64,000 bases of DNA from Mycosarcoma maydis (Eukaryota; Basidiomycota; Ustilaginomycetes; Ustilaginales), in assembly GCF_000328475.2 (NCBI RefSeq), contig NC_026478.1, positions 620,001 through 684,000 of the forward strand. Reading direction: 5' to 3'. The notes under the pieces are model-generated. The model was given only the letters and a program-made list of their open reading frames with translations, had not been told where the DNA came from and did not search any database. The translations under genes were made by a program, and so were the position numbers. Of the stretch, positions 2,909 through 63,838 are shown piece by piece (positions within the stretch are counted from its first letter, which is position 1; each line of letters begins with the position of its first letter).

Positions 2909-3520
2909 AGTACATTCACCCTGCTAATGCAGCAGATCAAGCTATTCGCTTGGACAAACCGACTCTTGCATGCCCGAGCTGTGGTTCCCGCTTGTCTTTC
3001 AAGGTGGTCAGAGCGTAGAAGCAGCCGAACAATTCGCATGTTGCAGACAATGGAAAGCGTCACTTGACCGAGCCAAGCCGGTTGACAAGTTCATTACTAC
3101 CTTGGCATCCTCTCTGGCTAAATATCCGCATCTTCTGTACATCGTCGTCTCCTCATCAGTCGGGCACATCTCTGCTCGCTCATTTCGGAGTCCAGGCTTG
3201 CTGTGCTTTGACACACGATTGTGGTCCATTCTTGCACCTTTCTTTTGTTGTTGTACGATGGGTAGTCAGTGACCCCATCGACATTGCCCGTGTTTGGTGT
3301 CTCGACATGCGTGCATGGCATTTGGATCTTGGTGGTTCCGCGCTGCAATTCGATCTGGACATTGCAAAAGCACGGCTTGGCTGCCTTTAGATTCCCTCCC
3401 ACTTTTGTGATTCAAACATAATGGTGGCATCTGCTACGCCTGCAATACCAATGCGATTCGTGATTCGTGATCCGTGGTTCACGTTTGTTGTGTTTTTTTT
3501 CGCTTGGATGAGCATTTACG

Positions 3521-3559
3521 GATCGTGAATCGTGGATCGTGGATCGTAGATCGTAGATC
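3521..3559. repeat. Heptamer array (GATCGTG)n, degenerate
   Basis: Five to six head-to-tail 7-base units of the form GAT-CGTG, the later ones GAT-CGTA and one AAT-CGTG. The array belongs to the same family as the dispersed A-x-T-CACG words, with G replacing the first A. Confidence 0.8.
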
Positions 3560-4160
3560 TCAACCAAAAATGTGGGACTCAAGTGAAACTAGCCGTCTGA
3601 AACCACAAATCACAAATCGAGCTAAAACCAAAGCCATAGAGCCAGAGCCAGAGCCAGAGCCAGAGGCACACTGAGATAGCGCGGGCGTTTGACAGGTGCT
3701 GCAGAGGTAAAAATTGGAATCCCGTCGGCGCACCGTCCAAACATCCGGACACCCATCCACATCTGCACTCACGATTCACGCCTGAGTCCCTGAACTGTGA
3801 CTGATATTTTACGCAGCTGTGAATCTGTGTAGAAAACCAAACAGCAGACAAGCAGACGGCAAGTCACCGCTTCGTACGTACTTATTTTTTTTATTTTTTT
3901 TGATGGTCCAGACCTCTGGTGCAGTGGCTTGGGCTTCGCGCTCACCGCTGGTTATAAGCAAAACGTGAGACTCATGACTCGTGACTGTGACTTTCGGAAT
4001 TGGTCCAAGCCAGGAAGCCAGGGGCTACCTGCCATGTCTCACTTTGGGTCCGTGTTGCGTGTCGCCGCCTCCCTTTCCCCATCAAGCGAGCCATTCTCGC
4101 TTTGACAACGTAGGGAGCATTCGGTACAGAACAAGCGCAAAGGTCGGCAACCCGTTGACG

Positions 4161-4205
4161 ATTCACGATTCACGATTCACTATTCACTATTTACGATTCA
4201 CAATT
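4161..4205. repeat. Heptamer array (ATTCACG)n, degenerate
   Basis: About six 7-base units: ATTCACG, ATTCACG, ATTCACT, ATTCACT, ATTTACG, ATTCACA, then ATT. The 7-base phase is kept while the fourth to seventh bases drift, as expected of an ageing tandem array. Confidence 0.85.
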
Positions 4206-8500: not shown

Positions 8501-10008
8501 TGCCGTCTTCGACGCAACGCACATCGTCTGTAGACAAGCCATCCCGCCCACCTCCGAGCGCATGGACTAGGCGCGGCGTTGGCCCGATTGCGCATACAGA
8601 CACCTCGACTCGGAACGCCTCTGATGCGGGTCACGGCGGCGACGAGGAGCCTCGCGGCGGCGCAAGCAGCGTCGCCAGCTGTCACTCTACCATTTCGAAC
8701 ATTAGCGATCGTCGTATGGAAGTGCTGCAAGATAAGGAAGCGCTGCTTTCAGCGCTGAGCGAGTCTTCGCGCAAAGAATTCATGAAGCGCGCTCAGGGAC
8801 GTTTCGCCGGAGCGTTCAGCGAAGTGTCGGCAGCATTCCGACAGCTGCAAGCAGACAAGTTGCTGTTGGAGCAGATTGTGCGCGAAAAGACACCGCTGGT
8901 GGGCGTTGGGACCAACCACGAAATGCTCAGCAGCTACCTTTCGGCGATGAATGCCAAAGTGGAGCAGAGCAACGCCGAGATTCGCAAGCTGCTGGATCTG
9001 CTCGAACAGCAACGAGAGGTTATGGATCAGATGATGGCCACGCACCAGTTGCAGAGGGACACGTACGAGGAAGATCTGAATCATATGCACACGGCGATGC
9101 AACAGGCACAGGTGGAAGCGGAAAATGGTCGAGCGGAGGTGGTCAAGCTGAACGAGGAGCTGACGAAAGCGCATGCGCAGCTGGTGCAGGCGAGCGCCGA
9201 GGCGATGCGTGCCAGGACGACGCTGGCGGAAGAGGGCAGGAAGAGGGAGAAAGTGGTAGTGCTGTTGAGGCAGGCGAAAGAGCGGTTGAGGGAGGTCGAG
9301 GCGGAGCAGCAGCAGCAGCAGCAGCAGCAACAGCAATGTGAGCGCGGACTCGGCCATGACGAGTTGGAGCACGTCGAACGACTCTCGGAAGATGACATGG
9401 GGCTGTCACGGCATTCAGCGTGCGCAGAAAGCGAGGCGGAACAACTACGACGGATGCTCGCCGAGCGTGATGCCGAGATCTCGGCCCTGCGCCTCTCGCA
9501 CGCTGACTCGCTGATCAACTCGCCGCCTCTGCCACCGGCGTCGGGGTCGACTTCGGCGTCAGCGGAGCTTGATGCTTGCTATTCAGGCACGAGCCCAAGC
9601 CCGAGCCCGAGCTCAGAGCTCGAGCAGCTGCGTGAGCAGCTATGCTCGCAGCGCGAGCGCGAACGGCACATCCGGAGCGCGTACCTGTACGTGCGCGAAG
9701 AACTGCGCAAGGTGAATCTCGAGCGACGCCGCTCGTCGATGCACGGTTTAGTGTCACCCGCGAGCGCAGCTGCAGCTGGAGCTGCAGCCCGAGTGGATGG
9801 CTCGCCTTCGCCGCGCACGAGGGACGATACGGCGGTCAAGTTGAAGCGTCTGAGCTTGCCGATCGTCGCACGTGCGTCAGCCATCGCGCTGGCGAGTGCA
9901 GGTTACGCCGAGTCTGCATTTGCAGACCAGCAGGACGCAAGGAGCTCCAAACCAAGTTCGCCACCAAGCGCCTTTCGGCCACCGTCTAGTCAGTGGCCAC
10001 AAGCCTGA
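5524..10008 (+). CDS. Large Ser/Thr/Pro-rich protein with C-terminal coiled coil, function unknown
   Basis: A 1494-residue intronless ORF. The first about 1050 residues are low-complexity Ser/Thr/Pro-rich sequence with many SP/TP sites, as in cytoskeletal or polarity scaffolds under kinase control. From roughly residue 1060 to 1280 (bases about 8700-9360) there is a long heptad-rich coiled coil (DKEALLSALSES, then EQSNAEIRKLLDLLEQQ and so on) ending in a polyglutamine run near base 9307. A second short helical stretch (ELEQLREQLCSQRERE) lies near base 9620, followed by a Ser/Ala-rich tail. No catalytic domain or membrane segment is visible and the family is not recognised. A septation or polarity scaffold role is only a guess from architecture. 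The first ATG (context acaATGGCC) was taken as start. It converges on SSK1. Confidence 0.85.
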   Translation: MAMFSQWKRKRHYPMDAGPSVIPMSSSQPASPVSTLFPRTDTPRSIPPQSFQGRPTGVKTFGKVVIGKGTRRRPATREGSHGTPSPMSFAAGPRNSSRGTNDLEFGGGVVPDDSQSDADLSDSSMSPITPQNIASTIGKQSRHSISSVISSDRATPFSPSKVTHPSSDDLSARVRTNSIDSDSVGSLNDFRTLISFSSPPDLLDRESPALTPSTTLSTPDVTSTVAATINKSARVPIADQPQPLLPASSLAAAEPNLLISSFKISATDSLEAGRKPYKRVPPNVASIGTDESPNNGARRGSTPTSVPESVSQCGSSQLPCEEFQSPGQARFALDTMRGHEESTQRGSQVAATFGLGISSASEQTQAASSCSSRANHPFPCRSISTHRHTKTTSDLSANSSVDSWGPASFGHDSLRMSLETDRLNEPTKTASSSSIKTHRTYVSDSDHSATTVETSTDVPDIDPLSPIKEHTESPDPTLHQHTSPVIGLSRSPTAAFSEACGFTSSVVSARSDEIRSASHSQQFARSPDHLVGLNEIREGQWDNQQTASNSFLPTSADSMSSPSCDASTKSVSQLSATGGLLPPLELEDSVQRTHARSASNASWTYSRKFSSEQYSTTGPRRGSADTAFQVTNHRLLPETYTAPLPSQPFPLSTSISVPMLPADFARSKPQASEPNTPNLAYEAALAKAVGMQRKHRPAALALNHAALSAFAPSGSIEYSFTLDKNGCSFASPSSFAFKGMVSPGRTRAPPPSAPPAEPLPPIPITPSLTPKSPSVRQRTESCATSVSSTKTFGADAKDPLATPTQVHSSSFSAKEQSQDHSPRLDPASAATLANAISGVQPLTASESANQIRAATQIETEYQGPIQSSSSVLPPAEEGPSRPSTAVSAEESSDSTATLEVAQIVTRTPIRPARLSMSNKGNDLQETSKTAAPAVVAAEHADGQIASPIIKSRLLKGTALVTTANVDAEKSSSTEASSRKVSDNTPQKQTTQFLPSSTQRTSSVDKPSRPPPSAWTRRGVGPIAHTDTSTRNASDAGHGGDEEPRGGASSVASCHSTISNISDRRMEVLQDKEALLSALSESSRKEFMKRAQGRFAGAFSEVSAAFRQLQADKLLLEQIVREKTPLVGVGTNHEMLSSYLSAMNAKVEQSNAEIRKLLDLLEQQREVMDQMMATHQLQRDTYEEDLNHMHTAMQQAQVEAENGRAEVVKLNEELTKAHAQLVQASAEAMRARTTLAEEGRKREKVVVLLRQAKERLREVEAEQQQQQQQQQQCERGLGHDELEHVERLSEDDMGLSRHSACAESEAEQLRRMLAERDAEISALRLSHADSLINSPPLPPASGSTSASAELDACYSGTSPSPSPSSELEQLREQLCSQRERERHIRSAYLYVREELRKVNLERRRSSMHGLVSPASAAAAGAAARVDGSPSPRTRDDTAVKLKRLSLPIVARASAIALASAGYAESAFADQQDARSSKPSSPPSAFRPPSSQWPQA
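9307..9335 (+). repeat. CAG/CAA repeat encoding polyglutamine
   Basis: A run of about ten CAG/CAA codons inside the coiled-coil gene gives a Gln tract directly after a charged helix (REVEAEQ). Such tracts vary in length between strains. Confidence 0.85.
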
Positions 10009-10708
10009 GTCGGCGGCGGCGCTTGCGTTGGTTCCACCAGCGCTGTGTGCGCCGATCGCCTCTCTCTGACCTTACACGTGTACGGTGTGCTGTCATACAG
10101 TGCTGTCATACAGTGTGCTGTCATACAGTGTGCTGTCATACAGTGTCATACAGTGTGTTTCCGTGTACAGCCAAGAGTGTTGTCGTGTACAGTGTGCTGC
10201 CATGTACAGTGTGCCGTTTACAGTGTCATGTCGTGTGCGGTGTGTTGTCATACAGTGTGCTGCCGTGTACAGTCAGAGTGTTGTCATAAGTGTGCTGCCG
10301 TGTACAGTGTGTTGTCGTGTACAGTCTGTGAGTGTGCTGTCATAGAGTGTGGTGCCGTGTACAGTCACGAGTGTTGTCGTGCACAGTGTGCTGCCGTGTG
10401 TTGGCGAACGACGTACGTGCCCTGCACATTGATGCCTCTCTCTACACACTACACTCTACACTCTACACACTGCACACTGCACACTGCGTGTTGCACTAGC
10501 TTGCACGCGACGGGCGAGACTCTGTGCAGGTGGGTTGTGCGCGTGGCTCGGCATCAGGGAGCGAGACAGGCGAGCATGGCGACGAGAGGTGTGAGCAGGC
10601 GCGCCATGTCTGGTCGTGCGCGTCACACTCACGACTGCATACTCTGCGCACGTGCGCGTGCCAGCATTCGTGATTCATTCACGATTGCATGACGGTGCCG
10701 CCCACACA
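10009..10708. other. Convergent intergenic region with minisatellite
   Basis: Lies between the stop codons of two convergent genes. The first 400 bases are mostly the minisatellite annotated separately. The remainder is purine/pyrimidine-skewed DNA with CACT/TACACT repeats near 10440-10490 and three A-x-T-CACG words near 10627, 10666 and 10677. No gene is supported. Confidence 0.6.
10081..10400. repeat. Minisatellite of TGTGCTGTCATACAG / TGCCGTGTACAG units
   Basis: About 15-18 imperfect units of 12-17 bases. The early units read TGTGCTGTCATACAG almost exactly; later units shift to TGTGCTGCCGTGTACAG. All share a CAG-TGTG junction. It sits just after the stop codon of the coiled-coil gene and probably overlaps its 3' UTR. 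Confidence 0.9.
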
Positions 10709-26797: not shown

Positions 26798-28641
26798 AAG
26801 GCGATCAGCTGCTGAACATGCTGTCGACATTCGGTGTCGCCCTAGAGGTTGCGTAATGGCGTGTGCGTTTTCTGCTTGTGCACGATGAGTTGCGATTCAG
26901 GATGAACATCTGTGCTGGTGGCCTCAGCGCAAGTAGCGGAAAAGAGGAAGGGCTGAGCATTGAAGTGCCTTTGTTCGTGTATTGTGCCCAAAAAGGAGGT
27001 TACAAAATTGTGTCAAATGTCGTCGTCCTGAGAACAGCTTCCGACTCGCTTGGTCGAAATGCGTATGCTACGATACAAAAAAGGAAAAAAAAGGAATGAA
27101 AGCAGTCAGCACCTCGTTGATAGTGAGGCGTTGAGCTTTGTCTTGTCTGCCCTGCTCTCAAGCCATTGCTAGGATGCGTAACCAAGGACTGCCAGGGCGG
27201 AACTCGGTGTTACTCCAGAGATACGTGATGTAACTAATACAGATCGACAAAATCACGAATCGTGAATGGACACCACAGACGATGGAGAATGGGGAGTACA
27301 CGCGGCTCGTTGCCAGCGAATCGGAGACTGAAAAAGGTCCAAGGGGATTAGGACCGCACAGCTGATGAGCCACGGCAAGGCGAGAAAAAGGCTTGGCGAG
27401 GAGGAAACAAAGCACGTCGCAGATCCTCAACCCCGCTTTCAGGCCACACAGCACAGCACAGCACAGCACAGCACAGCACAGCACAGAGAAAACGAGATCA
27501 AGATTGGATGTCAGCATCCACGAATTCCTTTTTGCTTGGCTGGCTGTTTCTTTGTGAGGCTCTGCGCTGCTCTGCCATAAGCGATGCACGCTTCTTTATG
27601 AGTTATTTCTGGTTTCGATTCTGATTCACCTGCATCAGACCCCGTACAGGAACTCACGACTCACAATCGTGACGACTGCCAACTCAATTTCCAAAAACAT
27701 CCACGGTATGCGTAGAGAATCTAAATTGCGCTTTTCTGTATTGACATTCACGATTCTTGAATGTACTGTACTTGAGAGCACAGTCACGAGTGCGGCCGCT
27801 CTTGGCTGCACATGGTGAATGGATTTTTGTTTACAATGCAACGACTGGCTTGAGGCACTTGGTGATTCACGATTCAGATTTGGGAAGCGAACCAACCCTA
27901 TCCGCATCAAGCAGGCCAAACTCGATTTTTCGGCAGTCATCGTCCAGAGCTCTCTCACAGACTGGACTCTTGACTGCCGTTCGTGATTCGTGATTTTCAG
28001 CCTAGGTGGACGAAAAAGGGGCCCACAGGCGACTCAACTCAGAGACTGCGCGCGCGCTTTGTTGTTGCGTCACGATTCACGATTGCTGCTGTTGTATTTA
28101 CTGCTGCTGCTGCTTGTTCATCCAACACAAGTCAGAATCTGCCGGCTTGTCTGTCCGCAACAGCATCATCATCACCCAACCCGGTTCCTTTCACCATCAC
28201 CTCACCGTAACCATCACCGCATCCCTTCTGCAACATCACCCTACTTTTCTCAACGGTGTACCTTTACGCCAGCTTCAGCATCCGATTCACCACCACCAAA
28301 TCGAATCGATTTTCGGCATTTCCAGCTTTGGTCGAACCCCCGAATCGCATCCACCATCGCGTGCAGCCTGTCAGCTCGCAAAGTCGAGACTCTTTGGCGT
28401 ACCTCTCTCCTTTTTCAGTCTCGGCTCGTATCGAAAAGGTAACGGCTACCTCGAGTGTCACCTTTGATTAATCTAGTTGCGTCAACATTACTTCACCTTT
28501 GCGTCGATCACTCTGGTCGCGGCGCTCCTATCTTACATCGCATCATCCGAACAAGCTCAGCCATCCTCTGAAGACATAAATAAGCTCACACAGTTGTTTT
28601 TCACCACAGCCCCAAACGCTGCCGACACGCCTTTGCCCACC
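26798..28641. other. Intergenic region with CACAG microsatellite and A-x-T words
   Basis: 1.8 kb with no convincing gene. Contains a (CACAG)n run at about 27451-27485 and A-x-T-CACG words near 27252, 27259, 27652, 27746, 27782, 27865, 27986 and 28075. The 28080-28640 part is rich in CAC/CTG and pyrimidines and is probably the 5' leader of the next gene. Confidence 0.6.
27451..27485. repeat. (CACAG)n microsatellite
   Basis: Seven exact 5-base units CACAG in tandem. Confidence 0.95.
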
Positions 28642-38122: not shown

Positions 38123-38595
38123 TGTTGCTGATAAACGGGGGATGAGGCAAGGCGAATGGAAGTAGGACGTTAGCCTGTCGTGTGTTTTCCGCAAAGATGT
38201 GAATGGGCAGTGCGAGTTGAGAGTCGCTGAGCACAGGCCATGTTGCTGTGTGGGGGACTTAAAGATGAAATTCGTGAATCCGAATTGTGAAGCTCACTCC
38301 ACTCACGACTCTCACAGATCCTCGTCTTAGCCCGTGGCCGGTGGCCGAAAATGAATCACGAATCGTGAATGTTCATCGTCGAGTCTCCGCTAGGCTTCTA
38401 CACAAGACCCGCCTTGAACCACGGCTCGCAAAGACAAAATGCATTCACGATCAAGAGTTGGTATATGATTTCAAGCAGGGCATGTCAATGAGACAGAATA
38501 CTAAAACAACAGCGACAAAACGAGGGGGCACAAGTACAGTGATGGAAGACACAGGTTCTAGATGGGGCTCGATGGGGCTCTGAGTGTGAGCGAGA
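38123..38595. other. Intergenic region between CAP and NDC80
   Basis: CAP promoter and NDC80 3' UTR. A-x-T words lie near 38301, 38354 and 38361, plus one mismatched form (ATT-CGTG-AAT) near 38272. Confidence 0.6.
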
Positions 38596-40788: not shown

Positions 40789-42218
40789 GATGGCGATCAA
40801 CTGAGAGATTGTTGGTAAGAGTTGGGGTTAGAAATGGAGATGGAGGATAGGGTAGACGGCGCCGTGGCTAGAGAGCCTCGTCCCGGTCAGATAGAAGCGG
40901 AATAGTCTTGGATTGGATGCAGCGCTATGGCAATATGCAAGAAGAGATGATGGTGGTTGTGAAACAACGTGGATGGATGGCGAGCAAGAGCGGAAGCGGA
41001 AGCCTGAGCCTAAGCCAGAGCCTGCAGAGCCGAGCCACAGGAGCCACAGGAGCCTCGTTGAATCACGAGTCTATCTCAAATTCCAGCTTTTCCCTCTCCT
41101 CACAAATCCAACACCTTTCGGCTCCCAACCAACCAAAACACGCGTCGCGAACGATTCTTTTCGACCTAACATGATCACGTGACAATCCACGAGCCAGTGA
41201 AGTATGAAATCGTGAATCACGAATCGAGCCAGACAACCCAACACGAAATCACTTGACGGACAGCTGTCGAGGCTTGAATTTGAACTTGAAAACGTTCGCT
41301 GTGAGCAGCCAGCCGCCACTCACGACTGTATAGAGCAGCAAGGTTGTAAGGGTCCGCTGCAAGCCTGCTGCAGATGACGAGGTGGCTTTGTACCGTTTGT
41401 CGTTGCCCACGTACAGGCGACCAACGTCGCAACATGGTCTGCGTTCGACCTGTTAGCTGTGTGCACGCCAACCTCTCAAGACCCTATGCAATTGTGAATT
41501 GCCAAGCAAACGGCCATGAAGGATGAGCAGAGTTATCGTCCTGTTGGCTGACTTTGGTCTGTAACGTGGTTGGAAGCACCTCAGCCCCGCAAAAAGTGCG
41601 AATCGTGAATCTCATCTGTGTCACAGCGCACTTTGTGGAACAACGAACCGAGCCACTCACGACTTGCCGGCAGGACGTGTGCCTAAAGCACATTAATTTG
41701 TTGATTCACGATTCACGATTTCACGATTGTGGCTCACTTTACTCGAATCACACTCACGACGTTGTGACCGTTGTACTATTAATACTATATCTCATGAATC
41801 GCGTGATTTCATGTGATTCACGATTACAATTTGTGAGTTGTCACGAGTCGTGAGTCGTGAGTGTTCAGTCCCACGCACACATTCGTCCGTGATCATTCAC
41901 GATTGTTTTAGTGCACTGGCCACACTCACAGACTCGCGAATCACATCGTCCATCTCAATAAGTGGCCTTCTCTTAAACTCTGTGACTTCTCGCCTTGCAC
42001 CCCAACCATTGCTTCGTCACCCGACATCATTCACGATTCCTGTCGAGCTGATCAACAACCCAGGCATGGCCTCTTAGTGCGCACACTGCTACGCCACGGC
42101 GCAGCCTCAGTCGCCTCTCTCTTCTCTCTCTCTCTCCCTCTCTCCCTCTCTCGCTCTCTTTTCTCTTGTTCTCTTAACCCACCTTCGGCCTGCCACTGCT
42201 AGCGTGCTTGTCGTCGAC
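40789..42218. other. Intergenic region dense in A-x-T words and pyrimidine tract
   Basis: 1.4 kb with one of the highest densities of A-x-T-CACG words: near 41208, 41215, 41318, 41601, 41655, 41704, 41711, 41816, 41846, 41853, 41895 and 42029. It also has a degenerate (GAGCC) run near 41000-41055 and a CT-rich tract just upstream of the next gene. No gene is supported. Confidence 0.65.
42113..42172 (+). repeat. Polypyrimidine (CTCT) tract in 5' leader
   Basis: About 55-60 nearly pure C/T bases ending some 45 bases before the start codon at 42219. CT-rich tracts near transcription starts are common in fungal genes; a promoter role is inference. Confidence 0.7.
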
Positions 42219-51643: not shown

Positions 51644-53300
51644 GTGCTCCCACTCTCAACAACAACAAAGGTACCAATGCAGACCGATCACTTGGTGTAT
51701 GGGAACATCGTCGAGACAGCGACAGTCTCATTCCTCGACTTCCGACCATGGTCCAAACACCAACCGGAGGGCAATGCGATAGCAGGTGTACCTCTTTCCC
51801 GACACGCAGATGCAGACACTACTCGAATACACCCTTAGCTATGAGGGTCAGCATGTCATCACGCCCCTTGCTATTCTGGTCGAATGCGTCTCAACCCTGT
51901 GTTGCGTCACCCATCACCTGGACCCTTCTGCTAACAAGATGAAATTGGGACAGCAGATGCGCATACGCATCAACATTCTCATTGCGAATCAGGACTGGGA
52001 TGCACTCTACATCTTTGCTAAAATGATCGATGGCCAGACGAGCGTTCGCCGAGGTGCCCATGGCCTCGGCGCTGCCCACCTCGAGACCGACGAGGCAACT
52101 AATAAGATGTGCACACACTCTCCCGCATTCATCCCGCCTAGACTCACACATTGTCCTGTCCATTGCGAGGAGACACCTACGGCGACCCTTCGTCCCACCA
52201 CCCTTGTTGAGATCACTCGCCCCCTTGTTGGTCGAGAGGCCAAGTCATGGAGCCTTTCGCCCTCAACCGTCACCTGCTCAATACTCTGCCAATCCTGTAC
52301 GATCACTTAAGGTGGAATGCCGATCATGTCCTTGATCCCAGCTCAGGCTCTGTGCACTTCTGGCGTCGTCGCTTGCAGAACACGCTAATCTGTTGTTCCC
52401 TTCGCCCAAGACGTCCTGGACCGCAAACACACCACTTACAGCACGCGGACACACTACTGCGCTCCATCGTCATGCAGAGTATCTCACCCCAGCTGCATAT
52501 CGAATACTTCTCTGAGCACGACGATCAGCTTTCGGTGACTGTATCAGATCTCTTCGTCCAGGGTGTCAACAAGTGCACCATGCACTCCGACGTGAAACAG
52601 TACAAAGTGCTGATAGCCACGCTGGCGTCGATGGGCTGGGGTCAGTGCTAAAGCCCATAGTTTCTTTTCAATTGGGAAGCCCACCTTCCTGAGCTCCACA
52701 CATACCTAGAGGGGCCCCGATATCCTGCTTTCCGCTACACAAATATGAAGCGTCCACTTCCCGGCGTTCAAAATGCTCTCGTTGACATGTATCTTTGATA
52801 TCCACGGGGAAGTTCATGGCGGCATTCATGATTCGGACCAAAGCGAACGCCAACGACGTGTCGCGTAGGTTCTATGTAAAGGGTGAGCGAACACTCCCGC
52901 GGACCTCCACAGCAGCACAGAGGACCTGCAGCTCATCGCCCTGCGTGCCGCAACACTCGTCAATTACTGGACCTGTGGCGAGCTCAAGCACGCCGCCAAC
53001 CGCTGTCCCGATTGTGATGCTCACGCACAATGGCTGAAGGACAACGTTAAGGTGTTGCACATGTATCGTGCCACCGCGTTAAACGGTTCGCAGCGACTAA
53101 GGGTGAAGCGCCGACATTTGCTTTCGTCACCGAACTTAACCGGCAGCCACCGACAAGCCACCTCGTCTGGTTCGTTTTCGATTTAGGTGCATCGTGCGTC
53201 ATAGTTTATCAAGTGCACCACCGAAATGGATGACAAAATGTCGACTCTTCGTCAGCATCACTACAACAGGTGGCGGCAAATTCCCTGTGTCCGAATTCAC
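51644..53300 (+). mobile_element. Decayed Ty1/copia-type retrotransposon: gag, zinc knuckle and protease remnants
   Basis: A series of plus-strand frames broken by stops and frameshifts. The gag-like part runs about 51644-52651 in three frames (LVYGNIVETATVSFLDF; then MKLGQQMRIRINILIANQDWDALYIF; then MQSISPQLHIEYFSEHDDQL). At 52965-53006 the frame reads YWTCGELKHAANRC, the CCHC zinc knuckle spacing with the first Cys replaced by Tyr. At about 53168-53205 FVFDLGASCVI matches the pepsin-like protease start (usually D-S/T-G-A) with Leu in place of Ser/Thr. The order gag-knuckle-protease, with the later RT fragment, fits a copia element. It is clearly inactive. The exact family is not assigned. 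Confidence 0.75.
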
Positions 53301-53593
53301 GTCGTAAGAAAAGGAAAGAGTCGTCCTCGGAACCACCCCGACAACCACCCCGGGTGGCTCCTAGGTGACTTCTTGCAGGAACCACCCCTCGCAGATGGCT
53401 CCTAGGGTGGTTCCGAGGACGACCATCCTCTTAATAGCTTGTCGGCCAGGTGAGTTGCATAGGAGATCACACACAAGACGCAAGACCTGGTATTGGAGCA
53501 AAACAATGTATGTATTCGTAGCCCAGCAATTCGAGAAGGTACTGTTGCAAGAGAGTTATTGGCAAAGTCAGCAGCTTGCTGGAGCATCGATCG
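53293..53593 (+). repeat. About 300-bp inverted repeat, left copy
   Basis: Matches, in opposite orientation, 56562-56868. Shared segments include ATTCACGT(C/T)GTAA, the 105-bp MITE-like unit, a central block starting CATCCTCT, GGAGATCACACACAAGAC, GGAGCAAAACAATG and GAGCATCGATCG at the inner end. The copies differ by several small indels and substitutions. Confidence 0.85.
53320..53424. mobile_element. MITE-like 105-bp element with 19-bp perfect terminal inverted repeats
   Basis: Starts GTCGTCCTCGGAACCACCC and ends with its exact reverse complement. The interior is rich in CCACCC and GGTGGC and can fold further. A second 105-bp copy lies at 56737-56841 and a third, partial one starts at 55649. 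No flanking target duplication is obvious because the copies share their flanks. Confidence 0.75.
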
Positions 53594-53664
53594 CGGCTAC
53601 AAAGCTCGCGAATGATCGACTCGACCAGCTTTGTATAGGCGTCTGGCCTCTGCGGCCAGTCGAA

Positions 53665-55001
53665 TCATGAATCGCAGGACGGGCACGCCGTGCAAGGATG
53701 TCGGTTATTCCTCAAAGGGCGGGAGAGGGTCACGGGTCCCGGGGCTGCAAGCCCATTCGTGATTCGATGATGAAGCTCGCTTCGGAACGGCTTTTGCAGT
53801 GCCCTGTCTCGTTTGGGACCACCTTCGCCTCTGTGAGAGGTGTCGAGCGGTACCAGAGGGGGTTTTGAGGCGGATGCAGCACGAGCGGCTGCAGGGTCGA
53901 TGCGGTGGATCACATCGTCAAGCCAGTGCAGCGACTGGGCAATGCTTTGGTGGTAGGAGCGCATCTCATCGCTGAGATTGCATATGGTTGATTCGAGCGC
54001 TTGGCGTCGTTCCAGCACAGTGCTTCACTCGTCTTGGTGATTCACGATTTGATTCGTCTTGTCTGTTTGGCTCGTTTTGATGGTTGCGGGTAGACGGCAA
54101 AGGCGTGTTGGCGAATTCACGATTGAGGAGGATGGTGTCCATCGCCCGAGAATTCTCGCATGCTTGCCGGCTGTATGTGGACGATAGTGTCAATCAGATC
54201 TTGTATGCTAGACTGTGACTCGGGCTGACTCGACTGCCAGCTGCCACGGGTAGCTTTGCTGGACTCGGCCCGGCTGATGGAGTCGGATACGGCATACTCT
54301 CCAATAGAGCTCAAAGACGAGTCGCTCATGAGGCTAATCGGATCGCGTCTTTCTCTCTCCTCTTCCGACTCGGTGCTGTTTCTTCGGCGTGTCCTGACCT
54401 GTCGAGTCTGCCTACTGATACCATCTTGCTTTGTTGTTGTTTTTTTGGGTTTCCACGGTGTGTCATCTTCCTCCACGCAGAAGCGAATACGATCTTATTG
54501 ACGGTGGACGGTGGCAAGAAGGAGGAAAGTACAGCGAATCATGAATCTTGGCACCACAGACCAAGGGAAGCGCAGACAAAGGACAAGGCTTCTCACGGAA
54601 ACGACTCAGTCATCAACGGCATGGTCGGAATCGACTTGCTGAAAGTCCTTCTCAATTGCTTTGAAAGGCAGACGATGCAGCAGTAAAGGTGAGCCAGACG
54701 GTGAGTCAGACATTTGGGCACTACGAGACTGCCTAGGCGGGGTTGCTGAATCATCGCAACTGTGGAGGAGGAGGAGGATGCCTGAGCGCTCCAGGTGATC
54801 GAAAGTTTTAAAGAGATCCGCTCGCCATCCATCCGCTTTCCCAGCATGTCTTTCTGACTCGTCAGTATCATCTCGTTGCCGCCAACGCCTCATGCAGCAG
54901 TCCATCGTCAGCTTCATCGCCAGTCTCGTAGCATCATACGGAATCGTAAATCGCCAACAAACCTCGTCGTGCCCGGCGTAGTTATCAATCATGAATCTCA
55001 T
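53665..55001 (-). CDS. Possible multi-exon gene inside the broken retroelement, unrecognised
   Basis: Three minus-strand open blocks look coding. Block A (55001-54606) starts MRFMIDNYAGHDEVCWRF and continues AMKLTMDCCMRRWRQRD and PFKAIEKDFQQVDSD. Block B (about 54490-54117) reads RIRFCVEEDDTPWKPKK followed by a Ser/Glu/Arg-rich stretch and LIDTIVHIQPASMREFS. Block C (about 54012-53665) reads VLERRQALESTICNLSDEM and SIAQSLHWLDDVIHRIDP. They would be exons of one gene of roughly 350 residues, but I could not fix the splice sites. Between B and C are two A-x-T words, as expected if that part is intronic. No family is recognised; it could also be a set of unrelated chance frames. Confidence 0.35.
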
Positions 55002-55069
55002 AGGACCGCCATGGCTGTGTGATCCGTGTGCCCATGGTTGACGACGTGTACCCGCACAGCTACCACTGC

Positions 55070-55610
55070 TCAGCGCCGTGCTACCCAGTACAAAGCAAGA
55101 CTGGTTGCTCAGACTCATGCACACAGACTTGGCCTGAGCTATGATCAAACGTTCAACCTTGTCATCGGCCTTTAGACTGTACGCATGCTTCTCGCTCTTG
55201 CGCGTCGCTACGGACTCCACACCGCTCAGCTTGACGTGGGCACCACGATCTTGAATGGAAAAACAGACAAGCATGTCTATGTCCGTATCTCTCCAACATT
55301 CGAGTCGCCTGGGAACGACGGTAAGCGCTATCATGTATGCCCTCAGGAAAACACTCTACAGGCTCAAGCAAGCTGGTCGTTCATGGCACGCTGCCCTTGC
55401 CAAACGACTACAGGCGTTTTTATTCAAGCGCTGCCATACTAAACCCTGCATTTACGTACATGGCAGCAAGGACGCTATAGTGATACCTACCGTCTATGTC
55501 AACGACTCGTGTGGTGATGCTGAAGAAGCTGGAGAGCTACTTTCTGGCGGATACAATGGAACATGCCGCACCTCACGACTGGCATGAACGTCAATTACGA
55601 TAGTGAGGCG
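55070..55610 (+). mobile_element. Ty1/copia reverse transcriptase fragment, frameshifted
   Basis: From about 55089 the frame reads YKARLVAQ and LSYDQTFNLVIG, then an in-frame TAG (near 55172), then LLALARRYGLHTAQLDVGTTILNG and KHVYVRIS. Around 55325 the frame shifts and continues ALRKTLYRLKQAGRSWHAALA, KPCIYVHG and IPTVYVNDS. These are the ordered copia RT blocks (YKARLVA, YDxTF, AQLDVxxAFLNG, LxKxLYxLKQxxRxW, catalytic YVDD). The catalytic motif is YVND here, and the stop and frameshift show decay. It is probably part of the same element as 51644-53300, with the integrase region lost or replaced. Confidence 0.85.
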
Positions 55611-56561
55611 CGCACCCTTTCGATTCACGTCGTGAAAAAAGGGTAAAAGTCGTCCTCGGAGCCACCACGGCAAGCACCCAGGGTGGCTCCCCCTGAAGAG
55701 CCACCCGAGCAAGGACCCCCGATCTAGGCTCCTCCTCAAGTGGCTTCCAAGGAGCAGCCACCCTGGGTGGTTGCTTGTTTGGCTTCCGATGAGCAACCAG
55801 CCACCCCCCATCAACCAACCGGTCCCAGCATACAGCTCAATACGCCACAGTTGTTGTCAATCACGAATGCAATCATGAAAATAATAAATTAATCTAAGCC
55901 AACGAGCGAGCGAGCAAGTGAGATGGACGAGTGAGCAAACACCAGAGATTGAAGAGTGAAAGAGACCAATGAGTGAGCGAGACCAACGGGCGATACCAGC
56001 AAGTGAGAGGCAAGACCTTCACTTACGAGCAGTGGAGATGGCACGGGACAATGAGAGAGCATCGACGCTTAGCAGAAGAGGCGAGGACAAGATCTGATGG
56101 TGTGGTTTCAGCAGCGTCAGCACCAGCGCCGACCACAGCATCGGCAGTATCAACAGCGTCGGCAGTATTCGCAGCACCACGCCCACAGCACCACACCCGC
56201 AGCGGCAGCAGCAATAGCAGCAGAATGCCGATCCTCCCTCTCCACACGCCGCAGTAGCCTCGCGCTGAGCCAGTCTGCGCACGCCGCGGTCTTTTGATCA
56301 GCAAGGTCTCGGTCAAAGTCGAGTTTCATGCGGACATCTACCCGCTGGCGATTCGTGATTCATGATTGGCTTCGTCTATAAGCCTGCTCGTCTTGGTCTA
56401 GCCCTGATGCTGCATCCGGTAGAAGTTGGCCTGCTCACTGTTGGGCTCGGTGGCATTTTTCGGTCCCGGTATGGAAGGACCACAACATCCTCCACTATCG
56501 ACCTCCTTCAGATGCTTGAGATCCGCTGCGCTTTCAGTCATGAGTACGTACTTCTCCTCTC
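55611..56561. other. Repeat-derived DNA between RT fragment and right inverted repeat
   Basis: Begins with a third, partial copy of the CCACC-rich repeat (flank ATTCACGTCGT at 55623, GTCGTCC from 55649). Then come GAGCGAGCGAGC-type low complexity (55890-55990) and a CAG/CAC-rich stretch (56105-56215). A-x-T words near 55859 and 56351. No gene is supported. Confidence 0.6.
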
Positions 56562-56868
56562 CGATCGATGCTCCCGCAAGCTGCTGGCTTTGCCATTTTT
56601 TAACTCTCTTGCAACAGTCTTGAGCACCTTCTCGAATTGCTAGGCTACGAATACATGCATTGTTTTGCTCCATACCAGGTCTTAAGTCTTGTGTGTGATC
56701 TCCTATGCGACTGGCTGACAAGCTAATGAGAGGATGGTCGTCCTCGGAACCACCCTAGGAGCCACCTGCGAGGGGTGGTTGCTGCGAGAAGCCATCTAGG
56801 AGCCACGCAGGGGTGGTTCCCGGGGTGGTTCCTGGGTCGACTTTTTGCTTTTTTTACAACGTGAATTT
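56562..56868 (-). repeat. About 300-bp inverted repeat, right copy
   Basis: Reverse-orientation partner of 53293-53593; see that entry. It contains the second 105-bp MITE-like unit at 56737-56841. Confidence 0.85.
56737..56841. mobile_element. MITE-like 105-bp element, second copy
   Basis: The left end GTCGTCCTCGGAACCACC is identical to the first copy. The right end GGTGGTTCCTGGGTCGAC has three differences from a perfect inverted repeat. The length is the same, 105 bases. Confidence 0.75.
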
Positions 56869-57091
56869 AATCACGAATCATGAATCCGACAGCTTTTGCA
56901 AATTCCCATGTCTAAGTGCCTCACTCACGACTCCATGTTCAAGTTCTTATATACGCGTGACCCGTTGGCGTTTCGGCGTATCGAAGTGCCTTGTAAATAG
57001 GAACTTGCATCTCGAGATTCACTCTTGCCCTGCGACTCATGTCTGCATTGAGCTTGAAGCATTTACTGATCCGGATAGCAATCCATGTTAG

Positions 57092-57347
57092 AATATCTAC
57101 GATTGGCGTTTAGTCTGATCGCCCACAATCATGCAACCCTTGCAGTAACCTAACCGGTATACACGAGTGACCGGACGGGAACGAGTAGGTGTCTCAGTAC
57201 GCGCGCTATACGCGCGCGACACGCACTCAATACACCAGCGGTACGACCGCGGTACGCGTGCGATACACTCGCAGTACGACCGCGGTACGCCCGCAAGTAT
57301 AGTAACTCGCCAGAGTTTTCCCAGTTCACAACATAGCGCTGGTAGCG
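57092..57347 (+). repeat. Inverted duplication, copy A, with extra CG-rich insert
   Basis: Matches the reverse complement of 57818-57970 (shared ATTGGCGTTTAGTCTGATCG, ACAATCATGCAACCCTTGCA, GAGTAGGTGTCTCAG and CATAGCGCTGGTAGC). Copy A has about 107 extra bases (about 57198-57306) after GTCTCAG, made of TACGCGCG and GTACGACCGCGGTACGC units. Confidence 0.9.
57198..57306. repeat. CG-rich insert with repeated GTACGACCGCGGTACGC
   Basis: Two exact copies of the partly palindromic GTACGACCGCGGTACGC plus TACGCGCG units. Present in copy A and absent from copy B of the inverted duplication, hence an insertion or a deletion. Confidence 0.8.
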
Positions 57348-57623
57348 AGAAGCCCAGAGTAGATTCACACAAGTCACGAGTCGCTGGACGACTCACGACT
57401 GTGGGAATATGCCGTTGGTTACAGACTCGCACCAAATGGAAGAACCTGAGGGAGAACAGACTCATGCATCTGGCCAGTGGCCACGGCTAGTCAGCTGTAT
57501 GAGGAGGCGACGTATAGGGAGAAGCTCATGTAGGATACTCGTGACTCCAGTCAACTCATGTACATGAATACAGAGGGAACGCTCACACTTTGTAGTTAGT
57601 CCCTTGTCCAATACACACTATCC

Positions 57624-57815
57624 AAATACATTCCAAACCATTCTCGACCACTACTCAGCCCCAACTCGCCTCTTTAAGGAAAGGGAGACTTCGATATTCA
57701 ATATTTGCGGTGAATCCTTAGCGGGCGCTGGATGATCGAAGTCTCCCTTTCCTTAGAGAGGCGAGTTGGGACTCGTGACTGAGTGGTCAAGAATGGTTTG
57801 GAATCGTGAATGTAT
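57624..57815. repeat. Large hairpin: about 70-base arms around a 39-base loop
   Basis: Left arm 57624-57695, right arm 57735-57815. The inner 36 bases (CCCAACTCGCC... to ...GACTTCGAT) pair with a single mismatch. The right arm has two extra short segments, each an A-x-T-CGTG-A-x-T word (57771 and 57802), that the left arm lacks. Confidence 0.92.
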
Positions 57816-57817
57816 TG

Positions 57818-57970
57818 CTACCAGCGCTATGTTGTGAACCGGGGAAACTCTGGCGTTCTGAGACACCTACTCGTACCCGTTCGGTCACTCTGACTCGTGT
57901 GCACCATTCGGGTAACTGCAAGGGTTGCATGATTGTGGACGATCAGACTAAACGCCAATCGCAGATATTT
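57818..57970 (-). repeat. Inverted duplication, copy B
   Basis: Reverse-orientation partner of 57092-57347 without the CG-rich insert. It abuts the right arm of the hairpin. Confidence 0.9.
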
Positions 57971-58572
57971 TAACACGAGCGAGCGCTGTGTGTGTTACGC
58001 TGACGGAGCGCGTTCACCAGCAGCTTGGCCCCAGCTCTGGATAGGGTGGCTTGTTGCAAAGTCCGTGTTAGAAAATCACGAATCGTGAATAGTGGAACTC
58101 GTGACTGACTGGTTAACTTACAAAAAGATAATGAAAAACAATCACGAATCACGAATCACAGAATCACGAATGATTAAGTTCCAAAATCATGCTTTTTGAC
58201 AGGTGACAGTTAGATATCAGGTCAAATTCATGATTCGTGATTGTCGAGTTAAACCAAACTCGTGACTCATGACTTTTTGAAAACTGCCAAAGCTTTAGGC
58301 GTCGTGTGATGAAACCCAAGTCATGAGTCAGTTGCCTGGCCAGAAAGTCGTGTGAGTCTTGAGTACTATGTGATTATTCACTCGAATCACACGTGACTCG
58401 TGACTGTCAAAAATGTCTTGAATAGAATCATGAATGACATGAATCTTGGTCCTAAACGGCAGAAATCATGACTAGAAAAAATCATGAATCATATGTGATT
58501 CATAATTTGAAAATACGTAAGGTGAGTCAATCACGAATCACGAATGAACAAAACGCGCCCAGCTCAAGCAGG
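57971..58572. other. Region extremely dense in A-x-T words
   Basis: 600 bases with at least eleven exact words (58074, 58081, 58098, 58140, 58147, 58162, 58233, 58258, 58396, 58529, 58536), several CATG variants, and tandem forms such as AATCACGAATCACGAAT. No gene. Confidence 0.75.
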
Positions 58573-59894
58573 TTAGCGCGCTTTGCTCTGATCATCATCT
58601 CCTGGCCTACCTATTTGTGCCAGTATATCGTTGCCGTTCATCACCGATGGGTCGGAGAGTATGGCGCTGCTGTTGGCTAGGCTGGTTCCATACGATCGGC
58701 GTTCAGATCTACTGCAACAATCACGAAATCGCGTGTCTCGATGGGGGGCGGAGTCGACGTTGCACGTCTGGAAGTAGGCGGCCAAACTTACCTTCTCAAC
58801 GAAAACGGGATCCTTGCAGTCGTTGCTACTTGGAGTATCGAGCGAGTAACTGCTTTGCCAGGACTCGAAGTAAGGGCCCCAGCCATGTGCATCTGACTGT
58901 TGATCAACGTGCACCAGGTTCCTGGTGCTAGTCGTCACTTCATCTGGGCTTGGAGTCATGCGAAGTGATAACTGCGGTTGCGATACGGAGGTCCATTGGT
59001 CGCGAATGTTTGACACCACCCCGTACCCGTACCCAGGCTCGATCGGGCCCGAGCCAGTACCAGCCGCACCTCTGCTCGCCCTGTCGTAAGGTGCGCAGGC
59101 GACAGATGACCAAGGTGGAGCATCTGTTGCTAGTATTCGATTCGCGCCAACAATCAGACCGTGTAGGGAGAGGCGGGCCAGAGCGGCACTCGAGGAGCAG
59201 CAGTATTGGACCAGAACACTCAATCTGCGCGTAGTATTATCTCCCGTTTCGGTGTGACGAAGGTCAACAACATCTCCAAAGGGCTCAGTCAAGGCTCTAA
59301 CCATGCTAGGCGACGCAACGACATCGGTATCGAGGCCATCGAGCAAGAGTATGGAGTCATCCCTTCCCTGATACGCTTGGTGAATCTCGGAGACATTGTG
59401 GCCGCGTTGGGTCAGTTGCCGGTGTTCGAGAGGCTGGAGATTCATCTGAAAGTGTGTCGTCAGCTTGCTACGGTCATTTTGTGGAAGAGAAGCGTGACTC
59501 GAACAGTGTTTGCTCTGCAGGTGGTCAGAGCGGAGCTTACCTGGTGGCCTGCGCTGATCGTGTCTGGTTGCAACGGCCTCTCCTCGATGTTGGTATCTGA
59601 AGTTTCGTAAGAGAAGGGCGTACCGCTTCTCTGGACAATGGCGAAAGAGACTTCGATACGATAATTGTGCCATTGGAGCCCGTTGAGGTGTTCGATGGCA
59701 GCTCTAGCTTGAGAAGGATCCGACATGAGGATGAAGCCGCGTCGGCGAGCCGCATGGTCGAGGGTAGCCAGAATTACGGCATGTTCTACCGAGCCAAGCT
59801 GGGCAAAGAGCTCTTGGAATTGCTCGGTCGTAGCATCCAGAGGAAGATTAAGGACGTACAGGTTGCGCTGAGCACGCTCGCGATTAGCTCCCAT
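58573..59894 (-). CDS. RNA-binding protein with two RRM-like domains, two exons
   Basis: Exon 1 59894-59541, exon 2 59445-58573; the 95-base intron has donor GTAAGC, branch-like CTGAC and acceptor TTTCAG, giving 408 residues. RRM1: NLYVLNLPLDATTEQFQELF (RNP2), then RRGFILMSDPSQARAAIEHLNG (RNP1 RGFILM), WHNYRIEVSFA. A second RRM-like unit in exon 2: SILLLDGLDTDVVASPSMVRAL, FGDVVDLRHT and LVQYCCSSSAALARLSLHGL. The rest is Ser/Gly/Asp-rich. A good donor (GTAAGT) at 58791 near FVEK suggests an alternative or missed last intron, so the final about 70 residues are uncertain. The ATG at 59894 was chosen; the frame extends upstream but with non-domain sequence. The RNA target is unknown. Confidence 0.85.
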
Positions 59895-61079: not shown

Positions 61080-62996
61080 ATGTCGACAAGTCGAGGCAGC
61101 ATCGTCACACTAGCATCAGCATCCATTGGCACAGACAAACAGACTGTCCATGTGGGACAGTCTGACTCGTTAGACCGGTCCTCTCACCAGATGCCCGGTC
61201 GAAACCAACTGTCCTCGCAAGACTACGTCGAGCTGACTCGCATTTCCCGCAAGAAGGACGACATCGAACAACACATTGATGGCCTGCAGAGATGGCCAGC
61301 ATGGGATCCTTTCCAAAATGTTTCTACCTACTCGGCTGACCTCGACTGCCTCGAGCACAGCAAAACGACCCTTGATGCTATCACGAGCAATCTACAGAGT
61401 CGCAGAAAGGAGTGCAGCCGTCTGGAGCGCGACGTGGACCAATTCAATCTGGAAGACATGAAGCGACTGCGTACCGTGGCAAAAGCCGTTTCGAAGCGTC
61501 ACCTGTCTGGTCCAGACACTGACCTCTTGGAGCTCGCACTCGAGACCGTGTTTGCGCTCGACAGGCTTCTTCGTCTATTGCGCGAGCGGCAGCAAGAGCA
61601 CGAAGTGACGGAGCTGCGGCTGCAATGGGAGAGAATGGTTTGCTCGAGCTGGGCAGATGTCGGAGACCTGCGTCGTGACATCAAGGCTTTCGAACATAAA
61701 TGCAAAGCATTGGCGTGTTCCAAGCCAAACTCGCACTCCTTATCATCCTCCCAAGGAACTCAGCGCCAGCACGAGGATGTAAGGACCGCAGTAATTGATG
61801 CACAACATGACTCGACCGAACAGCGCATGCCAAAATCGACCAGCGCCTCGTCAAGTCTGGCCATGGAGTCGCTCAAGCTCGAGTCTTCTCGCTTGGTTCT
61901 CCGTATCCGTAGTTTCGAAACCGAGAAGGCTCGTCCCGCTGGCAAGCTTTTGGACCTTCTTATTGACCAAAGACAAGTTCCTGAAAAACTGATCGACGAG
62001 CAGGAAAAGCTCGAAGATGCCCTTCCTCACCCCTCTTCCGTCGAGGCCAACTCTTTGCATACCTTGTCACTGCTGGGGCAATCCTCTGTTTCGCTTTCTA
62101 GTGACCACGACCCAGGAAAGTCATTGGCCGCAGAGCTCGAAAGCAAGAACCTAGTCCGCGCCGACGAATCTAAGCTTATCAATCCGTCCACTTCTGGAAG
62201 CCTTTCCGTGCAAACCCTTGCCACCCCTCAGGATCGGCTTCGTAACGTTGGGTCAGCAACCCCTCCCCGCAAGGGTTCTGCTTCAAGCTTGCTTGCGACG
62301 CCTGTACGACACGCTTCAAATCGGTATCGCTCAAATCCTCGTGATGCCCTCGACGTGGCGATTGGTGACATTGTCAATCGCTTGTCCATCTCTGTCTCGA
62401 TCACAAATGCCTCTCTGACGGGAGGTGTGACGTCTGCTCGACCGCCTGGGCTCCAAGATCTGAGCGGTCAGTACTGGATTGGCGATCCTGACCCTCGTCT
62501 TTGCTTCTGCCGGTTTCTGCCGTCCAACTTGGTCATGGTTCGCGTCGGAGGCGGCTGGCAGGAACTCTCGGAATTTCTGATGCAGCACTATGCCCATCTG
62601 AGCCCGCGAGGCGCCCATAGTGATGGAGGCGAATCAAGTGGAAGACAGACATCCAACCTGGCTTGGATGCGGTCTGCCTCTGGCCCGGTAGGTTCGCCAC
62701 GTCTCCGGACCCGTTCGTCCGTAAGATCACTACGATCGCACGAAGCGATGCACACAGGCACTCCTCGGTCATCGTCGCGGATTGTTACAATGCCATGCAT
62801 GAGGAAGGCATCCATTATGACGCCGGTGAACGAGGGCAGCGCACAACCCAATTCTATCACCGAGCTGCACCAAGTGCCCTTCGAGTGTCGAGACCGCGGC
62901 TTTTCCCCATCCTGCACATCTTCTGACGTGCCTTCTAGCAATTCTTCTTCGTCCATTGTGATCCATCCTTCATCTCCGTCTTCGTCCGCTTCATGA
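61080..62996 (+). CDS. Coiled-coil protein with C-terminal GAS2-type (GAR) microtubule-binding domain
   Basis: 638 residues from the ATG at 61080 (accATGTCGACAAG). The N-terminal third holds spectrin-like or coiled-coil helices (YVELTRISRKKDDIEQHIDGL, DLDCLEHSKTTLDAITSNLQ, LLELALETVFALDRLLRLL, then VTELRLQWERMVCSSWADVGDLRRD and GKLLDLLIDQRQVPEKLI). Near residue 475-525 a GAS2/GAR-like module occurs: DIVNRLSISVSI, SGQYWIGDPDPRLCFCRFL, and VMVRVGGGWQELSEFLMQHY. The VRVGGGW-x2-L-x2-FL core is characteristic. The tail is Ser-rich with basic patches (RLRTRSSVRSLRS). Spectraplakin and GAS2 proteins use this domain to bind microtubules; a cytoskeletal linker role is inferred. Confidence 0.85.
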   Translation: MSTSRGSIVTLASASIGTDKQTVHVGQSDSLDRSSHQMPGRNQLSSQDYVELTRISRKKDDIEQHIDGLQRWPAWDPFQNVSTYSADLDCLEHSKTTLDAITSNLQSRRKECSRLERDVDQFNLEDMKRLRTVAKAVSKRHLSGPDTDLLELALETVFALDRLLRLLRERQQEHEVTELRLQWERMVCSSWADVGDLRRDIKAFEHKCKALACSKPNSHSLSSSQGTQRQHEDVRTAVIDAQHDSTEQRMPKSTSASSSLAMESLKLESSRLVLRIRSFETEKARPAGKLLDLLIDQRQVPEKLIDEQEKLEDALPHPSSVEANSLHTLSLLGQSSVSLSSDHDPGKSLAAELESKNLVRADESKLINPSTSGSLSVQTLATPQDRLRNVGSATPPRKGSASSLLATPVRHASNRYRSNPRDALDVAIGDIVNRLSISVSITNASLTGGVTSARPPGLQDLSGQYWIGDPDPRLCFCRFLPSNLVMVRVGGGWQELSEFLMQHYAHLSPRGAHSDGGESSGRQTSNLAWMRSASGPVGSPRLRTRSSVRSLRSHEAMHTGTPRSSSRIVTMPCMRKASIMTPVNEGSAQPNSITELHQVPFECRDRGFSPSCTSSDVPSSNSSSSIVIHPSSPSSSAS

Positions 62997-63838
62997 CATA
63001 GCACGCAAGGACGCTTTTTAGCTATTGACCAAATCTCAATCAATAAGCGTCTGCTCAGGGACGATCTCCTAGTTTCCCGCACAGTCCATGCAAAGCATTC
63101 TGCTCGTCACCTTCTTGTATTGTAATCTTGTCAAGTTATGTGTACTTCTCCGCATCAATATGTAAAGCAGTGTGCTCGTACGACTGTGACGAGTCTGTTG
63201 AATCTGCAGTGTCCGGCTTCCACAATTTGCGTCTGTCGAAGCATGCCCCGATCGACTCAGGCCGATATGATGAGACTGATTCCAACCTGCCAAGGAGATG
63301 CATCCTGCCGGAGCTGCTGGTTCGCTTGCAGTCAGTTTGCTGCTCGCCGGAAAGGGACACTTGCCAACAGTAGCCTGTTGCAGAACACACGTGTCTGTCA
63401 ATTACGAATTGCAAACAGGTGGGATTCAGACACTTGAATCATGAGTTTGGTGCGTTATGAACGAAGCACGAATATGGATCGGAGACCGGTCCGGGCCGCA
63501 TTATGTTTTTTTTTGGATTAACAGTTACACCTCGAGACACGAACACTGAGATTTCGTTGAATTCACGAAAATCTCAGAAATGCGGTGGACCCCGCGGGGG
63601 CTGGTGTTGCAAAGAAATCCTAAGCGACCAGACAGCTTCGCACCGACCATGCATACTGTAACTGTACATTCGATACTTTGGTGTGGGCTCAAGCTAAGGA
63701 ACAAGTCACGAGTGTCGGAATCAACATATCTGTTTCTATTTAACGTACAGACTTTGATGGATCCTGAAGCCGGACGCTTTGACCTTCCAACCAATTCCTC
63801 TGTCCACTCACACCGACACCAACGACCAAATCCGTGCA
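62997..63838. other. Intergenic region upstream of the dehydrogenase gene
   Basis: Contains one AGTCACGAGT word near 63704 and an oligo-T run near 63507. No gene is supported. The last about 150 bases are likely promoter and leader of the next gene. Confidence 0.5.

Follow-up and report, generated by a model that had tools for sequence, protein, structure and literature searches.

A dispersed ten-base word in Mycosarcoma maydis is the scar of seven-base insertions, perhaps left by transposon excision

Introduction

The window analysed here is a stretch of 64,000 bases from the basidiomycete fungus Mycosarcoma maydis (C1:620001-684000; unless a contig or sequence is named, coordinates are those of the window). 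Dispersed over it, from 3456 to 63713 and on both strands, mostly outside its long open reading frames (ORFs), is a ten-base word, AxT-CACG-AxT or its reverse-complement form AxT-CGTG-AxT, in which the variable base x is nearly always the same on the two sides of the core. We report that these words are the scars of real 7-bp insertions, each made up of a 3-bp target duplication and four constant bases in either orientation, and we weigh the processes from which they may derive, among them the excision of a cut-and-paste transposon. The genome searched, a single one, comprises 19,664,356 bases (19.66 Mb) in 27 contigs, and many of the counts below were made in a sample of 255,393 bases (the 255 kb sample), which consists of 21 sequences, namely the window and 20 added stretches from 18 contigs (L009-L028). 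Among the matches listed in a search of literature titles and abstract openings, with subscription journals mostly outside its reach, neither the word nor 7-bp insertions in Ustilago are described, and the main text of PMC7025860 does not mention U. maydis.

Results

An exact count on both strands finds 86 words of the form AxT-CACG/CGTG-AyT in the window, with x equal to y in 81. A preliminary description of this stretch had spoken of about 85 exact copies and about five mismatched forms; the words with unequal x number exactly five (3767, 38270, 41061, 48655 and 51426), all within five bases of the places it had named, and nine of its ten example coordinates are exact, the tenth, 27252, being one base off from the site at 27251. 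All four values of x occur, as it had said: read along CACG, the 81 same-x words comprise 27 with AA, 24 with TT, 17 with GG and 13 with CC. When the right-hand x is shuffled among the 86 words (10,000 shuffles), the mean number of matches is 23.2 and the maximum 41, against 81 observed, so that its expectation of about one-quarter under independence was also sound.

On the + strand, 52 of the same-x sites read CACG and 29 read CGTG. The CACG sites lie at 4161, 4168, 4492, 4684, 4773, 4945, 10363, 10627, 10677, 16066, 16080, 16242, 27251, 27652, 27746, 27782, 27865, 28075, 31604, 34028, 38301, 38354, 41215, 41318, 41655, 41704, 41711, 41816, 41895, 42029, 44984, 46966, 47060, 47074, 47493, 47696, 48619, 54040, 54115, 55859, 56869, 56923, 57372, 57391, 58074, 58140, 58147, 58162, 58529, 58536, 60717 and 63704, and the CGTG sites at 3456, 3977, 10666, 15993, 17170, 17229, 25960, 27258, 27986, 31538, 31563, 38361, 41208, 41601, 41846, 41853, 47722, 51225, 51244, 53755, 56351, 57537, 57771, 57802, 58081, 58097, 58233, 58258 and 58396.

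The same pattern is found in the 255 kb sample, where 290 same-x words stand against 28 with different x. Here the 3-base flanks of CACG are identical at 396 of its 2,704 occurrences (14.6%), compared with 2.5% over all tetramers; in this comparison with other cores, which had been set beforehand as a check, CACG is the top tetramer, followed in rank by ACGA and GTGA, both of them frame shifts of it. A scan of the sample for cores of 1-7 bases with 2-, 3- or 4-base flanks brings up, among up to five top-ranked of each, only simple repeats as prominent besides CACG and its shifts and neighbours. In the whole genome the pattern ANTCACGANT, which also allows x ≠ y, has 27,565 matches (13,811 and 13,754 on the two strands), against 262 (127 and 135) for a control pattern read backwards.

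That the words are insertions is seen in part of a retrotransposon-rich repeat block, at 53300..56500, which has 91 scored genome matches including itself, on 21 contigs with one cluster per contig, and which contains RVT_2 matches at 55071-55506. Diverged copies of one repeat within the same genome (paralogues) were compared here by pairwise and multiple alignment. In the multiple alignments a clean, empty single target is present in at least one copy at nine of 11 sites. The pairwise alignments of the first copies allow 21 comparisons of a site: in eight the copies differ by a clean 7 bases and the partner retains a single target, in two the core is the opposite one, and two compare arrays. 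The earlier reading of the word as a 4-base core within a 3-base duplication is borne out by these comparisons, and the clean single empty site, the other check set beforehand, is found among repeat paralogues of the same genome. Most copies are empty at seven of the nine clean sites, and the insert is therefore most simply the derived state.

Individual sites illustrate these differences. The ATT-CACG-ATT at 54115..54124 (+) lacks its seven bases in the other five aligned copies, where the base preceding the target is G and not, as in the window, A. The ATT-CGTG-ATT at 56351..56360 (-) is also filled in copy L044, while L045, L046 and L047 have the single target in the multiple alignment. By pairwise alignment, copy L036 has a single AGT in place of AGT-CACG-AGT at 57372..57381 (+) and a single ACT in place of both ACT-CACG-ACT at 57391..57400 (+) and ACT-CGTG-ACT at 57537..57546 (-). 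A non-ANT target, GGT-CACG-GGT at 53728..53737 (+), is empty in L038, L039, L041 and L042, as read from alignment gaps. The two exceptions to the mostly empty pattern are column 266, with three filled and three empty copies, and the ATT-CGTG-ATT at 53755..53764 (-), which was followed in both kinds of alignment. The filled copies at column 266 differ among themselves (ACT-CGTG-ACT, ACT-CAAG-ACT and ACT-CATA-ACT); the target at 53755 is a bare ATT in L036, L038 and L041, carries the opposite core, ATT-CACG-ATT, in L037 and L043, reads ATT-CACGCG-ATT in L039 and has AGC-CGTG-AGC alongside in L042. Repeated hits on one target could account for the variety at both places.

The filled and empty sites compared in this way are confined to retrotransposon-rich repeats, and the case for ordinary intergenic sites rests on flank identity, arrays and the form of the target. 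Of 10.8 kb of gene-dense window sequence, only a tRNA gene (at five places) and one segment of some 50 bases (at two) have matches elsewhere in the genome; with so few matches the comparison is limited to repeats and takes in no ordinary intergenic sites. C25 has no long paralogue for such a comparison. The small contig C24 (L027:1-2560) shares 2.5 kb, at 95% identity, with L031:4026-1501, near the end of C18, and this shared stretch contains no site; at its other end (8516-9182) C24 has exactly the sequence with which C1 begins (667 bases).

To score indels in the repeat DNA, pairs of copies aligning with at least 75% identity were searched for gaps whose flanks are clean, and the events were then clustered by empty site. 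Of the 111 insert-bearing events, 37 have exactly 7 bases and 20 have one base. Among the 80 clustered loci 7 bp is the commonest length with 27 loci, about 24 of them distinct, as the clustering is rough and counts AGA-CATG-AGA and ATT-TGTA-AAT twice each and the ATT-CACG-ATT of the window probably twice; there follow 12 loci of 1 bp, eight of 12 bp and seven of 3 bp, with fewer of any other length, and at least one cluster merges neighbouring places. Scored by the best allele per cluster, which biases slightly toward the observed side, 14 of the 27 seven-base loci are exact N3-CACG-N3 and nine are one change off, compared with 1.8% and 3.1% of random windows; two loci are two changes off and two are three changes off (the repeated ATT-TGTA-AAT). 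A tandem duplication of a full 7-mer occurs at none of the 27 loci. The targets other than ANT among the inserts are GGT, AGC, AAC, GCT and AGG. All three 6-bp insert loci have the form AxT-N3-AxT (ACT-GTG-ACT, ATT-GCG-ATT and AAT-GTT-AAT), and this sharing of AxT duplications suggests that they are minor products of the same process.

Variation of the core was counted in the 255 kb sample, where the 290 same-x words with CACG compare with 35, 27, 20 and 20 for the commonest one-base variants. AxT-CAAG-AxT and AxT-TACG-AxT, with 20 each, exceed most other changes except CpG transitions, and these cores may be alternative products. The sole 5-base core with strong flank identity is CACAG, for which AxT-CACAG-AxT has the same x in 15 cases and a different one in a single case. 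One-substitution relatives number 258 in all, with palindromic and mirrored patterns counted once, and about 50 would be expected by chance at even composition; so many decayed beside 290 exact sites fit a build-up over a long time, and an old burst is also compatible. Elsewhere in the window, at 27447-27486, lies a (CACAG)8 array.

Units that share a target copy form arrays, of which the sample contains 270: 238 of a single unit, 25 of two and seven longer. The two cores have the same orientation in 13 of the doubles and opposite orientation in 12, as is expected of independent insertion at random orientation. One x runs throughout in 11 of the 12 opposite doubles and, of all 32 multi-unit arrays, in 29; the remaining three read CCG, CTT and AAGAAA. 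The doubles of the window include same-orientation pairs on the + strand (++) at 4161..4177 and 41704..41720, with x = T throughout, and at 58140..58156 and 58529..58545, with x = A, together with one on the - strand (--) at 41846..41862, with x = G; the opposite doubles, all with x = A throughout, lie at 27251..27267, 38354..38370 and 58074..58090 (+-) and at 41208..41224 (-+). Across the whole genome, 4,617 neighbour pairs of the same orientation compare with 1,787 of opposite orientation (971 and 816), and with 7 and 0 in the controls, in counts that do not require identity of x and that include each overlapping window of long same-orientation runs. Such runs reach ten units. In a hand count of the opposite pairs listed on C1, one x is found at 82 of 92 places. 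Heptamer arrays are also found by Tandem Repeats Finder (TRF), and the excess of the same orientation is probably the result of later slippage, which would enlarge arrays.

When 149 isolated sites are collapsed to one target each, C precedes ANT in 54% (background 28%) and G follows it in 43% (background 27%), while other flanking positions depart from background by at most 0.08 bits. The preferred target is thus c-ANT-g, symmetric as for a dimeric recombinase, and the symmetry already proposed for A-N-T extends to its neighbours. With regard to genes, two of the 81 window sites, 31538 and 31563, lie inside the 16 selected long ORFs; a single ORF contains the pair, in its 5' part. In the 255 kb sample ORFs of at least 450 bases, called mechanically and without introns, contain 10 sites per 5,401 AxT, compared with 280 per 5,885 AxT elsewhere. 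Sites per AxT are thus about 26-fold fewer within long ORFs, which is to be expected of insertions that shift the reading frame. Convergent intergenic stretches have a lower density (20/649 AxT) than divergent ones (76/1,203 AxT), and tandem stretches show little preference of the core strand relative to the genes (61 to 50). Upstream of ORFs, sites are somewhat denser at 200-600 bp (46/559 and 43/438 AxT) than within 200 bp (13/444 AxT).

A transposase gene does reside in this genome: the DDE_Tnp_4 profile has three matches, on C2, C7 and C20 (best E 5.6e-25), confirmed on two ORFs. The copies on C2 and C7 share an element, which we take to be Harbinger-like and whose second ORF matches no Pfam family above the cut-off. 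The copy on C2 (L048:2108-3825) has, read by eye, 13-base inverted ends AGAGGTTTTGGTC and TTA/CTA flanks; the copy on C7 (L049, about 1754-3748), some 3 kb short of where that contig ends, has one end missing.

Other features of the window

The larger retrotransposon-rich block, at 53300-58600, has relatives on 21 contigs, grouped at a single place in each. It looks like the centromere region of its chromosome, a reading for which none of the literature matches listed (8 of 394) offers support. Nested tandem repeats with units of 15-92 bases, rich in TACAGTGTGCTG, occupy 10081-10399, and 16954-17053 consists of 100 N, either an assembly gap or a withheld stretch. A tRNA gene match at 48423-48526 (-) is 104 bases long compared with a model of 71 positions; from this excess in length the gene probably contains an intron. 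Three copies of it, two at separate places on C2 and the third on C14, have 93-94% identity; a further two have 74-75%.

Discussion

On balance we lean, if only slightly, towards the explanation that the scars are the excision footprints of a long-active cut-and-paste transposon, which would have chosen the target c-ANT-g and left four terminal bases behind. Such a transposon would insert with a 3-base stagger and so duplicate its target; on excision the outermost four bases of its ends (5'-CACG...CGTG-3') would remain as overhangs on both flanks, which could pair at C and G, would be mismatched in the middle of the core and could be resolved to either CACG or CGTG, in a manner comparable to Sleeping Beauty. 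A scar would occasionally be hit again in either orientation, as the arrays indicate, and units of the same orientation would then multiply, presumably by slippage. The 6-bp inserts of the form AxT-N3-AxT and the cores CACGCG and CACAG speak for footprints, since minor products of this kind occur where excision sites are end-joined. A long-running process would need only few active copies, none of them necessarily abundant now. By a rough estimate, if a divergence of several percent per base stands for about 10^8 generations, less than one jump per 1,000 generations per genome would suffice for some tens of thousands of scars; at so low a rate few resident copies are needed, and the absence of the element from the 307 kb searched for it, about 1.6% of the genome, weighs little.

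Several observations weigh against this explanation. Of 153 half-site pairs AxTCACG..CGTGAxT, 33 (22%) agree in x, which is no excess, and a terminal-repeat search of the 307 kb, from which L001-L008 and L035 were omitted, gave 122 pairs, eight with equal x and none convincing. The Harbinger-like element was rejected as the source, having the ends AGAGGTTTTGGTC and TTA/CTA flanks and not CACG with ANT, and the profiles of the CACTA transposase Transposase_21 (PF02992) and of Plavaka (PF18759) have no match in the genome, the control genomes being equally silent. Mismatched overhangs should also leave hybrid products, of which there is no excess over decay: CATG, with 27, is not above CACA, with 35, and CGCG has 8. 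The scar is also more uniform than many described footprints. Among the indels, the two loci that are two changes off read AAT-CGCG-ATT and TGT-CCTG-TCT, the latter perhaps unrelated. In the repeat copies nine of the 21 pairwise comparisons fail to give a clean difference, and a clean empty state is missing at two of the 11 multiply aligned sites, namely column 503 of block B and the ATT-CACG-ATT at 54040..54049 (+), which lies within a stretch of about 25 bases that is missing from other copies and is thus not a clean 7-base difference.

Known systems resemble the scars in part. The footprints of the Tc1/mariner elements (Tc1, Mos1 and Sleeping Beauty, and impala and Fot1 in fungi) likewise consist of a duplicated target around a few terminal bases and can be resolved to either strand; they are given as 2-4 bp in PMC7913693, and that of Sleeping Beauty as TAG(T/A)CTA, resolvable to either strand, in PMC2874221. 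Unlike the scars described here, which duplicate three bases, mostly ANT, around CACG, these elements duplicate TA, and here tens of thousands of scars are accompanied by no element in the 307 kb. The PIF/Harbinger superfamily, to which we liken the resident DDE_Tnp_4 element, makes 3-bp target duplications, and many CACTA/CMC elements make duplications of 2-4 bp; the ends of the resident element differ from the scars, as described above, and no element with CACTA-like ends was seen in the 307 kb. The mobile GC clusters of yeast mitochondrial DNA are very short, are spread in non-coding DNA and have a short target duplication, but they are tens of bases long and mitochondrial, whereas here four bases are found on chromosome-sized contigs. 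Heptanucleotide satellites and microsatellites share the period of seven, and longer arrays occur here too; what sets the scars apart is that most of them stand singly and that, within an array, the cores may point either way.

The explanation that competes most seriously with footprints is a direct micro-insertion, in which a nuclease or recombinase would open ANT with a 3-base stagger and repair would add CACG by use of a fixed template, be it an RNA, an end bound to the enzyme or some other template in trans, with no resident transposon. We regard it as possible but distinctly less probable: it would account for the high constancy of the core, for 7 bp as the commonest indel length and for the resident element not having been found in the 307 kb, whereas the minor cores GTG, GCG, GTT, CACGCG and CACAG resemble variants of end joining and not copies of a single fixed template, and we know of no such enzyme or template. 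The related claim that a cellular process puts four fixed bases into ANT as an ultra-short templated insertion, duplicating 3 bp in a single step that involves no transposon, seems to us somewhat less likely again; if it were true, small insertions in the repeat DNA measured would most often be of this class. That the scars stem from a superfamily already described, which has since become rare in this genome or died out there, be it PIF/Harbinger, CACTA/CMC or a relative, and not from a new type of element, is doubtful. Both superfamilies make 3-bp or near-3-bp duplications, CACTA ends start with CAC, and the DDE_Tnp_4 element with its second ORF is present on C2 and partly on C7; against this stand the different ends and flanks of that element and the lack of a PF02992 match, on which the control was silent as well.

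Two further explanations deserve very little credence. Replication slippage of a heptamer NTCACGA into 1.4-copy repeats, a candidate named in the preliminary description, finds some support in the surplus of same-orientation pairs, in the runs of up to ten units and in the arrays detected by TRF, and we retain it as a secondary amplifier; as the origin it is ruled out by the 12 opposite doubles, 11 of them with one x, which slippage could not produce, by the 1,787 opposite pairs and by the lack of tandem 7-mers among the 27 inserts, and most arrays (238 of 270) consist of one unit only. Still less probable is a protein-binding site maintained by selection, despite the mostly non-ORF location of the sites and their higher density 200-600 bp upstream of ORFs than closer by. 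It had been argued against earlier on the ground that binding would not require the identity of x, and the argument stands: all four bases occur with enforced identity (81 of 86 words, against about 23 when shuffled), which, together with presence and absence between copies of one repeat, rules this explanation out; the many single-substitution relatives beside the exact sites are moreover what neutral decay would leave.

Conclusions

If the reading as scars is true, about 1% of the genome consists of the scars of one insertion process (27,565 ten-base words, some overlapping by three). If this process was one of insertion followed by loss, with rare resident copies, a genome can seem poor in DNA transposons and yet be heavily marked by one of them. 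Studies of regulation should be wary, since motif finders are likely to flag a word that is about 100 times as common as its reversed control. As markers the scars are potentially polymorphic and open to dating; they also record the target preference c-ANT-g and so give the search for the enzyme concrete terms.

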